In this document: positions 41,368 through 44,858 of the stretch, piece by piece
How positions within the stretch are numbered: the first letter of the stretch is position 1
Layout of the letters: every line of letters starts with the position of its first letter
Source of the DNA: Dyadobacter sp. CECT 9275
GTDB lineage: Bacteria; Bacteroidota; Bacteroidia; Cytophagales; Spirosomataceae
Length of the DNA: 64,000 nucleotides
Direction of reading: 5' to 3'
NCBI RefSeq assembly: GCF_907164905.1
Contig: NZ_CAJRAF010000001.1
Span: forward strand, 779,001-843,000
Made by a program: the position numbers and the translations under genes
Notes under the pieces: generated by a model
Told to the model about the DNA's origin: nothing
Databases searched by the model: none
Seen by the model: the letters and a program-made list of their open reading frames with translations, nothing else

Positions 41368-42225
41368 ATGGAAATTGAACAATTAGAAAAAGTTGCATCA
41401 CAAGTTCGCCGGGATATCGTTCGTATGGTGCATGGTTGCCAGTCGGGGCATCCCGGAGGATCTTTGGGCTGCACCGAGATATTGGTTGCACTATACTTTG
41501 AGCAAATGAAGCTTAAGGAAGAGAACGGCAAACCGGTTTTTGATATGGATGGAACTGGAGAGGATCTCTTTTTCCTTTCCAACGGACATATTTCTCCGGT
41601 ATGGTATAGTGTTCTTGGCCGTAAGGGATACTTCCCGGTTGAGGAAATGGCTACCTTCAGAAAGCTTGATTCAAGGTTACAGGGCCACCCAACTACCCAC
41701 GAACATCTGGAAGGTATCCGGATCGCCTCAGGTTCTTTGGGCCAAGGTATGTCGGTTGCAATTGGCGCCGCTTTGTCTAAAAAACTCAATAAGGATAACG
41801 AAACCGTTTTCGTCCTGATGGGCGATGGCGAGCAGCAGGAAGGGCAGGTATGGGAAGCAGCTACATTTGCGCCGCACCATCAGGTAGATAACCTGATTGC
41901 TTTCATTGACCTGAACGGCCAGCAGATCGACGGCCCGACGGTGAAAGTGATGAATAACCTCGACCTGGGTAAAAAATATGAGGCTTTTGGCTGGGAAGTG
42001 ATTTCCATAGAAGAAGGCAACGATATGGCGGCGGTTGTAAAAGGACTTTACGAAGCCAAGTCGAGGCTGGGCCACGGCCGGCCGATCATGGTATTACTGC
42101 ATACCGGTATGGGCTTCGGCGTGGACTTTATGATGGGAAGTCACAAATGGCACGGAGTGGCACCAAACGATGAACAATTGGCCGCCGCGCTGGGACAGCT
42201 GGAGGAAACTTTGGGAGATTATTGA
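41368..42225 (+). CDS. Transketolase, N-terminal subunit
   Basis: A 285-residue protein with the thiamine diphosphate-binding half of transketolase. HPGGSLGCTEIL, the GDGEQQEGQVWEA motif that binds TPP and magnesium, and SHKWHGVAP are intact. It needs the C-terminal subunit at 43905 to work in the pentose phosphate pathway. In other Bacteroidota the two genes are normally next to each other; here 1.68 kb with two unrelated genes lies between. Confidence 0.94.
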   Translation: MEIEQLEKVASQVRRDIVRMVHGCQSGHPGGSLGCTEILVALYFEQMKLKEENGKPVFDMDGTGEDLFFLSNGHISPVWYSVLGRKGYFPVEEMATFRKLDSRLQGHPTTHEHLEGIRIASGSLGQGMSVAIGAALSKKLNKDNETVFVLMGDGEQQEGQVWEAATFAPHHQVDNLIAFIDLNGQQIDGPTVKVMNNLDLGKKYEAFGWEVISIEEGNDMAAVVKGLYEAKSRLGHGRPIMVLLHTGMGFGVDFMMGSHKWHGVAPNDEQLAAALGQLEETLGDY

Positions 42226-42276: not shown

Positions 42277-43311
42277 ATGAAGATTGAAAAACTCAGGATT
42301 AAAAATTTCAAATCCCTCGTTGACCTTGAAATCATCGAGCCAAATCCCTTTAGTGTTTTTGTAGGGGCAAATGGTGTTGGGAAATCGAATATTTTTGAGG
42401 CGCTGGAGTTTTTTTACTACGTGAACTCGGTTTATCCAGATGCACCAGGAAATCCGAAGGTTTCTCAGAAGATTACGTTTCAGATGTTTGATGGAGTGAA
42501 CCTACTGTCATTCAGGGAACAAAATAGACAAGCTAGCATCGAATTGCATGTTGAAGTAGGCTCTATCCACTCATCCATTTATAGTACAGGCAGCACTGAA
42601 AACGATCTTTTTTATATTGTAAGTGATGGAACCTTTTCAGACCGGAGCTTTTCAGAAAATGCCAAAAATGGAGCTGCGAATAAATTATTCAAGAATTTCT
42701 CCAGGATTTTTATTGGTCAAAGTCGATTAGAAAGAATCAACGCACAAGTACGTTCGAATGAAAGATTGACTATAACCGCGAGCAATTTGGAAAAAGTTTT
42801 AAAGCGGTTGCTTTTTGATGAGAACAGAAGAGAAGATATGATAGATTACCTTCGGTTACTCATTCCTGAATTTGAAAGATTGGAAATTCATTCAGACAAT
42901 ATTGGAGGGACAGACACACTTTTAATTTATGAGAAGGGCTCAGACAAACCTTTTAATAGAAGCTTGATTTCCGACGGTACTTACAATATACTTTGTTTGC
43001 TAACAGCCTTATATCAGTCGGATGAGCCGCAGTTTCTTTGTATTGAAGAACCGGAAAATGGGCTGAACCCGTTCGTGGTAAAAGAACTGGTGAATCTTTT
43101 CAGGAACGCCTGCGAAGAAAAAGGACATTATATTTGGCTGAATACCCATTCTCAGACTCTGGTTGAGGCGTTAACTCCTGATGAAATCATTTTGGTGGAT
43201 AAGGTCAACGGAGAAACACAGGTTAAGCAGATCAAAGGAATGGATTTACATGGTATACCCACAGACGAAGCATGGTTTTCAGGCGCTTTGGGAGGGGGTA
43301 CACCTTGGTGA
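42277..43311 (+). CDS. AAA/ABC-type ATPase (AAA_15/OLD-like), partner of the DUF4276 gene
   Basis: A 344-residue ATPase of the SMC/ABC-like clade. Walker A is GANGVGKSN at 30-38, the ABC signature SDGT at 232-235, Walker B FLCIEEPE at 253-260 and the H-loop His291 in NTHSQ. The N-terminus IEKLRIKNFKSL is typical of OLD-like ATPases; no coiled arm longer than about 100 residues is present. It lies inside the transketolase operon and is AT-richer than its neighbours (hand counts of 20 and 24 GC per 60 in two lines, against 29 in one line of the following gene). Such ATPases with TOPRIM partners act in phage defence; that role is inferred here. Confidence 0.88.
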   Translation: MKIEKLRIKNFKSLVDLEIIEPNPFSVFVGANGVGKSNIFEALEFFYYVNSVYPDAPGNPKVSQKITFQMFDGVNLLSFREQNRQASIELHVEVGSIHSSIYSTGSTENDLFYIVSDGTFSDRSFSENAKNGAANKLFKNFSRIFIGQSRLERINAQVRSNERLTITASNLEKVLKRLLFDENRREDMIDYLRLLIPEFERLEIHSDNIGGTDTLLIYEKGSDKPFNRSLISDGTYNILCLLTALYQSDEPQFLCIEEPENGLNPFVVKELVNLFRNACEEKGHYIWLNTHSQTLVEALTPDEIILVDKVNGETQVKQIKGMDLHGIPTDEAWFSGALGGGTPW

Positions 43312-43874
43312 GGATCGGGTTTGTTGTAGAGGGATATACCGAAAGGATCATTTTGAAATCTGATGGTTTTCGGGAATATCTTAAAGAGAAAAATTTACAA
43401 CTTATCCATGAAATCATCGTTGCCGGTAGTAAGGATAACCTGGCGCCGGCCAGAATTACAAGTTATGTTCAGGTACTGAGAGACAATGGCGCTGAGGTGA
43501 TTGTGGTGCTTAGAGATCTTGACGACTGTTTGAGTATTGAAGAAGCAAAATCGAAGGTGATTTCAGATACTGATATTGAGAAAGTCATAGCAGTCCAGGC
43601 GATTGAATCCTGGTTTCTGGCAGACTCAAAAACTTTGGGAGATATTCTCAATGTCCCCGATTTTTATTTTGATATGCCAGAAGAACTGGTTGCACCATTT
43701 GAAAAGTTGAAGGAATTAAGAATGAAATATTCGGGTAGAGGAATTGGAGATAAAAAAGTGTTTGCCAGAATTATGGTAAGTAACGGTTTCTCCGTTCAAA
43801 GGGCAGCCAGTCACCCCAATTGCCCAAGCGCAAAATATTTTTTAAATAAGCTGGAATCGCTAGCGGTTAATTAA
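43308..43874 (+). CDS. DUF4276 family protein, TOPRIM-like
   Basis: A 188-residue protein. The GTG at 43308 overlaps the TGA of the ATPase gene in GTGA and is preceded by a purine-rich GGGAGGGGG about 10 bases upstream; an ATG at 43272 inside the ATPase gene is possible but less likely because the conserved domain begins at once after the GTG. TOPRIM-type acids are visible: Glu8 in VVEGYTE, and Asp70, Asp72, Asp73 in VVLRDLDD. AIESWFLADS matches the conserved DUF4276 block. A nuclease role is inferred. Confidence 0.85.
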   Translation: MRIGFVVEGYTERIILKSDGFREYLKEKNLQLIHEIIVAGSKDNLAPARITSYVQVLRDNGAEVIVVLRDLDDCLSIEEAKSKVISDTDIEKVIAVQAIESWFLADSKTLGDILNVPDFYFDMPEELVAPFEKLKELRMKYSGRGIGDKKVFARIMVSNGFSVQRAASHPNCPSAKYFLNKLESLAVN

Positions 43875-43904: not shown

Positions 43905-44858
43905 ATGAAAAAATACACTTTCACAGAAAAGAAAGATACCCGTTCGGGATTTGGTGCAGGCATGCATGTTCTTGGACAACAAAACCCCAATGTTGTAGCC
44001 CTTTGTGCTGATTTGGTTGGCTCTCTCAAACTTGAACCCTTCATCAAGGAAAACCCCGAAAGGTTTGTCCAGTGTGGTATCTCCGAGGCTAACATGATCG
44101 GTATCTCAGCGGGACTAACCATTGGAGGAAAAATACCTTTTGCAACTACCTTTGCCAACTTCGCAACAGGTCGTGTTTATGACCAGATACGCCAGAGCGT
44201 GGCATATTCGGGTAAAAATGTGAAGATATGTGCTTCACATGCAGGCCTTACGCTGGGTGAAGATGGTGCAACCCATCAGATCCTGGAAGATATCGGTATG
44301 ATGAAAATGCTTCCTGGAATGACGGTGATCAATCCGTGCGACTATAACCAGACCAAAGCAGCAACCATTGCCATCGCCGAGCATGACGGGCCGGTTTATC
44401 TGCGTTTCGGACGTCCGGTTATTCCTATTTTTACCGATGCGGATCAGAAGTTTGAAATTGGTAAAGCATGGATGGTAAATGAAGGGACAGACGTGAGTAT
44501 CTTCGCTACGGGGCATATGGTATGGGAGGCGATTCAGGCTGGTGAACAACTGGAAGCGGAAGGTATCAACGCTGAGATCATCAACATTCACACTATCAAA
44601 CCGTTGGATGAAGAGGCTGTTTTAAAATCGGTTTCCAAAACAGGTTGCGCTGTGACTGCCGAAGAGCATAACCGTATCGGCGGGCTGGGCGACAGCATTG
44701 CTCAGGTGCTGGTTAAAAATAAACTGGTTCCCCAGGAATATGTTGCCGTGAACGACAGCTTCGGGGAAAGTGGGACACCAGCCCAATTAATGGAAAAATA
44801 CGGCCTTACGGCAAAGGATATTGTTGCGGCCGCTAAAAGAGCGATCAGCAGGAAATAG
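43905..44858 (+). CDS. Transketolase, C-terminal subunit
   Basis: A 317-residue protein holding the pyrimidine-binding and C-terminal domains of transketolase. FVQCGISEANMIGISAGL carries the conserved Glu that activates the TPP ring, followed by the PFATTFANFATGRVYDQIR block and a regulatory C-terminal domain. It starts 30 bp after the inserted DUF4276 gene and must pair with the N-terminal subunit at 41368. Confidence 0.94.
   Translation: MKKYTFTEKKDTRSGFGAGMHVLGQQNPNVVALCADLVGSLKLEPFIKENPERFVQCGISEANMIGISAGLTIGGKIPFATTFANFATGRVYDQIRQSVAYSGKNVKICASHAGLTLGEDGATHQILEDIGMMKMLPGMTVINPCDYNQTKAATIAIAEHDGPVYLRFGRPVIPIFTDADQKFEIGKAWMVNEGTDVSIFATGHMVWEAIQAGEQLEAEGINAEIINIHTIKPLDEEAVLKSVSKTGCAVTAEEHNRIGGLGDSIAQVLVKNKLVPQEYVAVNDSFGESGTPAQLMEKYGLTAKDIVAAAKRAISRK

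Follow-up and report, generated by a model that had tools for sequence, protein, structure and literature searches.

In the stretch of the Dyadobacter sp. CECT 9275 genome analysed here, 64,000 nt from NZ_CAJRAF010000001.1 (positions 779,001-843,000, forward strand; hereafter the window, whose first nucleotide is position 1), two overlapping genes lie between the two halves of a split transketolase (tkt). The first (42277..43311) encodes an ABC/SMC-head type ATPase of 344 aa and the second (43308..43874, GTG start) a predicted TOPRIM-fold protein of 188 aa, both on the forward strand like the features given below. On balance, the pair is probably, though by no means surely, an immune module of the HEC-01 type, carried as an optional allele at a fixed tkt site and containing in its ATPase a cassette that is exchanged independently. 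What is new is the unusual address of this HEC-01 pair and the strongly modular, hypervariable character of its ATPase. The flanking genes are tktN, encoding the N-terminal transketolase subunit (41368..42225; Pfam Transketolase_N, 1.8e-48), and tktC, encoding the C-terminal subunit (43905..44858; Transket_pyr, 2.5e-40, and Transketolase_C, 5.5e-31), so that the open reading frames and Pfam matches confirm the arrangement reported in a preliminary description of this DNA.

Both proteins match HEC-01 in PADLOC-DB 2.0.0, the source of the defence profiles used. The top model for the ATPase is HEC-01A (PDLC04176, 2e-89, 298.5 bits), and the second protein matches HEC-01B (PDLC04191, 4.1e-60; PDLC04185, 8.3e-53). 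As in HEC-01, the ATPase gene comes first and its partner is adjacent, the GTG of the second gene (43308) overlapping the ATPase stop by 4 bp, as GTGA. Judged by these profiles, the nearest named relative of the pair is HEC-01, a candidate defence system, and not PARIS, OLD or Gabija; the preliminary description, which had drawn its comparison with those three, keeps its proposed defence module and loses its closest relatives. HEC denotes Hma-embedded candidate, and several HECs, including HEC-06, showed antiviral activity according to the accessible part of the source (PMC12988326, 2026). No test of HEC-01 itself was found in the literature searched, parts of which were available in extract, and HEC terms were not found in the accessible part of PMC8565338. 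No literature was found for DUF4276 or for HEC-01 with PADLOC; searches on MADS and on transketolase with anti-phage terms returned nothing relevant among the items listed, the latter judged by title; and no published account of the tkt site or the cassette was found in a search that lacked preprints and most subscription papers.

The ATPase carries Walker A (GANGVGKS, residues 30-37, 42364..42387), an ABC signature-like ISDGT (residues 231-235, 42967..42981), a Walker B region (FLCIEE, residues 253-258, 43033..43050) and an H-loop histidine, His291 (43147..43149). In an alignment of 56 rows, G30, G35, K36 and S37, S232-D233-G234-T235, E258-P259-E260 at the end of the Walker B region, and H291 are invariant, and the Pfam families AAA_21 (2.2e-26) and AAA_15 (1.4e-20) are matched over their cut-offs. 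The second protein matches DUF4276 (PF14103) with 23.7 bits (E 6.5e-5) against a gathering score of 30.2, and this assignment, unlike the two AAA families named with it in the preliminary description, is therefore sub-threshold, although PF14103 is carried by 28 of 57 listed homologues. A TOPRIM fold is weakly indicated by its sequence and backed by its predicted structure (pLDDT, the predicted local distance difference test score, 93.9), for which the C-terminal (TOPRIM) regions of OLD proteins were the sole Foldseek matches in the PDB at E<=0.001, with GajA and the PARIS complex ranking behind them. Glu8 (43329..43331), a presumed metal ligand, stands past strand 1 (residues 2-7 of the model), and the presumed DxD of TOPRIM proteins, within D70-L-D72-D73 (43515..43526), stands past strand 3 (residues 64-70). 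Across 54 rows D70 is invariant, Glu8 falls in the 90% class, and D72 and D73 are the majority residues of the DLDD motif. The ATPase and TOPRIM architecture first read from these motifs is thus borne out by profile hidden Markov models, predicted structures and structural matches.

Membership of the better-known systems was considered in turn. In PARIS, according to the accessible part of one source, the ATPase AriA senses phage proteins and keeps the TOPRIM nuclease AriB inactive until then (PMC12409363). AriA models match the ATPase at 2.7e-28, ranking under ten HEC or PDC models, and no AriB model is among the 16 PADLOC families listed at E<=0.1 for the second protein, which differs from AriB in being DUF4276-like and 188 rather than about 305 aa long; the absence of AriA from the 50 VIA rows listed for the ATPase excludes nothing. 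OLD nucleases and Gabija GajA share the same two domains, and their TOPRIM parts are the best structural matches, but here the domains are split over two overlapping reading frames, whereas OLD classes 1-3 require ATPase and TOPRIM in one polypeptide. Gabija is further set aside by the lack of a UvrD-like GajB helicase gene between the tkt halves, the neighbours being tktN and tktC, and MADS by a MAD3 score of 74.9 bits against an NCBIfam cut-off of 420. PtuB is an HNH nuclease, and the pair differs from the Septu and retron PtuA ATPases in having a TOPRIM protein as partner.

The location of the pair is strongly conserved where the pair occurs at all. In the family, taken as Spirosomataceae in the wide sense by named records (Dyadobacter, Spirosoma, Larkinella, Runella, Fibrella, Arcicella, Emticicia and others), the second gene was found in 67 of 200 genomes and in 16 of 36 genera, the other 133 genomes giving no match. 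In all 67 carriers it adjoins tktN or tktC, far beyond chance; both were seen in 60, the stretch fetched from the other seven showing one tkt side only. Within the genus Dyadobacter the gene is present in five of 48 genomes, each time at the tkt site, and the 46 Dyadobacter sites read (those of G066 and G069 were not fetched and are not counted) comprise five with the pair, two with a Uma2-like gene only and 39 that are empty. The carriers' second proteins are 36-68% identical to that of the window. The preliminary description had held that its view would fall if relatives all carried the pair in the same place with housekeeping-like conservation; the place is indeed shared, but such conservation is absent. 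Across the order (390 genomes) the best match beyond the family has an E value of 8e-10 and comes from G052, and across the phylum (395 genomes) strong matches numbered four, in three genomes of another class, and had no tkt gene beside them in the sequence fetched. The G052 locus (L122) is a decayed pair in another family, its ATPase part 67% identical and its second gene mostly gone; the genome is in 720 contigs, the 2.8-kb stretch holds no tkt gene, and transfer or contamination is possible. Weak DUF4276-type matches (E 3e-8 to 2e-4) also lie elsewhere in the family genomes G004, G077, G105, G151 and G168, which shows that distant relatives exist away from tkt. A second tktC occurs in nine Spirosoma genomes; the pair is present in every one of them, as against 14 of the 24 with a single copy (Fisher p 0.03, uncorrected); the eight second tkt copies read (L297-L304) are all empty and form their own clade on the tktC tree.

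At this site the pair comes and goes. A tktC tree was built from 159 loci (61 carrying the pair, 95 empty, two with Uma2 alone and one relic, rows with identical tktC having been dropped); on it the pair label changes 31 times, at least 21 of these changes being forced by starred branches, against a mean of 48.9 for shuffled labels. Five close Dyadobacter genomes are 94-99% identical in tktN, 91-95% in the Uma2-like gene and 98-99.7% in tktC, yet the pair is absent from two of them, and D. frigoris and strain CY356 share only 55.6% of their ATPase and 42.9% of their second protein. At the DNA level these two are 90-98% identical in tktN, 100 and 93% over the opening 120 nt of the ATPase gene and 25-76% in its remainder, 38-65% in the second gene, 96-100% at the end of that gene and 93-98% in tktC. 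Since identity changes sharply inside genes, and flanks of 94-99% identity enclose a pair that is half-different or missing, alleles of the pair appear to replace one another at the site, for which homologous recombination is the simplest route. Two protein records that both bear the name D. frigoris share 45 consecutive identical residues at the ATPase start, with 53% identity overall, and their second proteins are 34% identical. The compact, cargo-like insert of the preliminary description accordingly gives way to a pair that carriers across the family hold at one site, with gain, loss and replacement.

Within the ATPase, exchange is concentrated in a swappable hypervariable cassette of residues ~46-165 (42412..42771, edges approximate), delimited by an entropy profile and by segment-wise identities in 68 tkt loci and 120 listed homologues, and lying after the Walker A helix in the ATPase model. 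From the locus counts, ten loci with incomplete, short or stop-bearing proteins, loci without a match to either gene, and L276, which lacks tktN, were left out, as were loci repeating the last 100 residues of another's second protein, hence any with equal second proteins but other cassettes. Of seven distinct comparisons between sisters, five show second proteins at 89-99% identity and ATPases at 71-80%, the difference being confined mostly to the cassette, and the second gene is under purifying selection in all seven distinct pairs (ratio of nonsynonymous to synonymous substitution rates, dN/dS, 0.04-0.23). In all 21 pairs of tkt loci of the tree set with second proteins at least 80% identical the cassettes share 14-46% (two of these pairs involve L171, whose ATPase start is aberrant); in nine pairs with second proteins at 89-99%, cassettes at 16-46% are bounded by residues 1-45 at 89-100% and residues 166-344 at 84-97%. 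Over all pairs of the 68 loci, median identities are 82% (residues 1-45), 22% (46-165), 62% (166-344) and 41% (second protein). DNA of eight such pairs is 80-100% identical over the first 120 nt and mostly 25-70% in the next blocks, and recovers at alignment codons ~150-180 in seven of the eight and at ~230 in L204/L083. Among the 120 homologues, whose genomic place is not known, 60 pairs have C-terminal parts at least 90% identical; cassettes are 13-40% identical in 44 of these and 56-100% in 16, with none between, and on this bimodality of the sequences the cassette changes by replacement and not by gradual drift.

The reverse combination also occurs, four pairs having similar cassettes with different second proteins (for example 72 versus 38% in Runella L185/L199). 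The extreme case, L194/L214, gives 100 versus 48%, although L214 is from a metagenome-assembled genome (MAG) that holds two alleles, and in LHD-138 the cassette is nearer that of CY356 and the second protein nearer that of the window. By contrast, in four proteobacterial pairs (among L208, L210 and L212, and L209/L228) the second proteins are 92-95% identical and the cassettes remain so at 88-96%. Where second proteins share 70-73%, cassette identity is 35-67% in six more non-Bacteroidota pairs; in the Bacteroidota pair L195/L231, from another operon, it is 31%, between ends at 96 and 87%. Silent cassettes in the same genome were considered and not favoured: in a search blind to lone cassettes that differ from the query, the window's genome gave one full-length ATPase match plus six partial ones, and each of seven other genomes a single full-length match, with additional partial matches in two.

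Much of this diversity might instead be explained by an ancient, vertically inherited locus, in which a single entry of the pair into the transketolase operon of the family ancestor was followed by many losses and very fast evolution, the distant alleles being old lineages. Such a history agrees with a tree of 106 pairs in which all 68 tkt copies can form one side of a branch (support 51), and with relics or broken copies in place (G073, G070, G180, G093), which show loss on the spot. In the same tree Bacteroidota-type copies split from the others with support 100; constraining the tkt copies to one group gives a better likelihood (p 0.99). Against vertical descent stand the sharp identity edges within genes, the bimodal cassette identities and the near-identical second proteins next to unrelated cassettes, and the trees disagree. 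The tktC tree places CY356, 3J3, D. frigoris and LHD-138 inside one starred clade of eight rows, whereas the second-protein tree rejects a single clade both for the five Dyadobacter copies (approximately unbiased test, p 5.6e-9) and for CY356, 3J3 and D. frigoris (p 3.3e-5), and the concatenated-pair tree rejects the Larkinella copies as one clade (p 0.019). Three points weigh against exchange at a fixed site as preferred here. A single Dyadobacter clade is compatible with the concatenated tree (p 0.79; p 0.94 for four without D. frigoris), the second-protein tree gives three changes of the tkt label, and the free quick search of the concatenated tree was judged poor because three constrained trees outscored it. 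Purely vertical descent is nonetheless considered unlikely.

A second account, also unlikely and slightly more so, takes the pair for a selfish element, or one akin to a toxin-antitoxin system, concealed within essential operons, its ATPase restraining the TOPRIM protein and any defence being secondary or absent. Sixteen of the 18 non-tkt Bacteroidota loci among 80 adjoin housekeeping genes, namely formiminotransferase-cyclodeaminase (seven, by similarity to L167), ileS-dksA (two), lycopene cyclase (two) and, once each, dapB/lepB, ffh, pyruvate kinase, an MlaE-ABC...CoA-ligase stretch and a decarboxylase...ABC-CoA-ligase stretch; the remaining two lie by an AccI-type restriction system (L183) and by unknown families (L173). 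This preference for housekeeping operons, the frequent presence and absence, and an orientation that always follows the host operon where four genes are seen would all suit a selfish module. Addiction, however, gives no reason for a hypervariable, exchanged ATPase cassette, and some HEC-01 relatives stand next to restriction or methylase genes. In L183 (Saprospiraceae) the pair is followed directly by an AccI-type restriction endonuclease gene and by one for an N6 methylase. HEC-01 relatives beyond Bacteroidota also differ in setting from the window's pair, which sits in a metabolic operon and belongs to the Bacteroidota copies with an exchanged cassette: L209 and three similar loci (L215, L222 and L228) are flanked by a DNA methylase gene and one of ResIII type, as assigned by Pfam for L209 and by cluster for the others.

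The gap between the tkt genes receives more than one kind of guest. In pair-less family genomes outside Dyadobacter it measures 2-187 bp (47 loci, 46 genomes), except in G073, whose gap of 351 bp retains a remnant of the ATPase, and in Dyadobacter G019 and G004 it measures about 667 bp with a Uma2-like gene. The Uma2-like gene of CY356 matches PF05685, a putative endonuclease family, at 1.2e-32 (other copies were assigned by eye), and such genes precede the pair in CY356, 3J3, D. frigoris, Runella and others; from these contents the site accepts guests of two kinds, singly or together. A Uma2-like gene past tktN, ahead of the pair or alone, was seen in L102, L103, L245, L233, L234, L072, L084 and others. 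At L101 (G180) two short open reading frames resembling, by eye, a RelE-type toxin-antitoxin system lie between tktN and the ATPase gene, and the second gene of the pair is broken. One MAG, G167, has a pair allele by tktN (L088) and another by tktC (L089) and is, given two different alleles, probably a strain mixture. In the window, an exact 14-nt direct repeat (42206-42219 at the end of tktN and 43630-43643 inside the second gene) is perhaps due to chance. A single site with two kinds of guest could point to integrated cargo, the tkt spacer being the attachment site of a site-specific element that brings the pair, but this is very improbable: the two genes alone fill the window's insert, so there is no integrase in it, spacers vary in length and sequence, the tkt copies group together unlike many unrelated arrivals, and the 14-nt repeat does not join the two junctions. 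A housekeeping partner of transketolase or central metabolism, for which the fixed operon site would speak, is scarcely credible given the 133 family genomes without a match, the relatives in unrelated operons and the hypervariable cassette.

Defence by an exchangeable HEC-01-type pair is the reading preferred here, and a defensive role is likely. The ATPase would most likely sense an infection trigger and control the small TOPRIM protein, a putative nuclease, from the overlapping gene; by analogy with PARIS, it may hold or license its partner until the cassette reads a trigger, and then release that partner. The pair is probably expressed together with the transketolase genes. Use of the transketolase transcript, already proposed in the preliminary description, is likely in view of the common strand, the mostly short gaps and the lack of a promoter-pattern match ahead of the pair; one Bacteroidota promoter pattern had three matches in the window against a chance mean of 3.67. 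The four genes, wherever visible together, keep their order on a single strand (121 of 121 loci, including places fetched more than once). In guanine plus cytosine (GC) content the pair (ATPase 39.4%, second gene 39.9%) lies 8-10 points below tktN (49.8%) and tktC (47.5%), the whole window being at 45.0%, so that the AT-richness noted earlier from hand counts holds, and at each of the 62 distinct occupied loci compared the AT content of the pair exceeds that of tktC, by a median of 10.4 points. Homologous sequence in the tkt genes and at the pair's conserved ends would let recombination swap the cassette, the effector or the whole pair, and because the conserved ATPase ends and tkt flanks supply that homology, such replacement would leave the operon unharmed.

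It is quite possible, though not yet to be counted as probable, that residues 46-165 form an exchangeable trigger-recognition domain that homologous recombination shuffles against nuclease alleles, giving a population-wide repertoire of receptors at a single locus in a manner comparable to type I restriction. HsdS of type I restriction has highly variable target-recognition segments flanked by conserved parts, and the enteric immigration control region has variable defence content between conserved boundary genes, according to the accessible part of one source (PMC12707154). Both, as described in that part, resemble the tkt locus in placing variable segments or content within conserved surroundings, but here the variable segment lies in an ATPase, past Walker A, and the anchors, unlike those of the immigration control region, encode the two halves of a single metabolic enzyme within the same operon.

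If the preferred reading is correct, residues 46-165 would be the sensor of a candidate defence family, and exchange of the cassette independently of the nuclease would make sensor specificity and effector recombinable. Natural strain pairs that differ at the cassette and little elsewhere in the pair would then make sensing by HEC-01 testable with existing isolates. Defence genes would also persist outside defence islands, nested in housekeeping operons, anchored by conserved flanks and renewed by recombination, and defence screens that rely on island context could miss such operon-nested loci.
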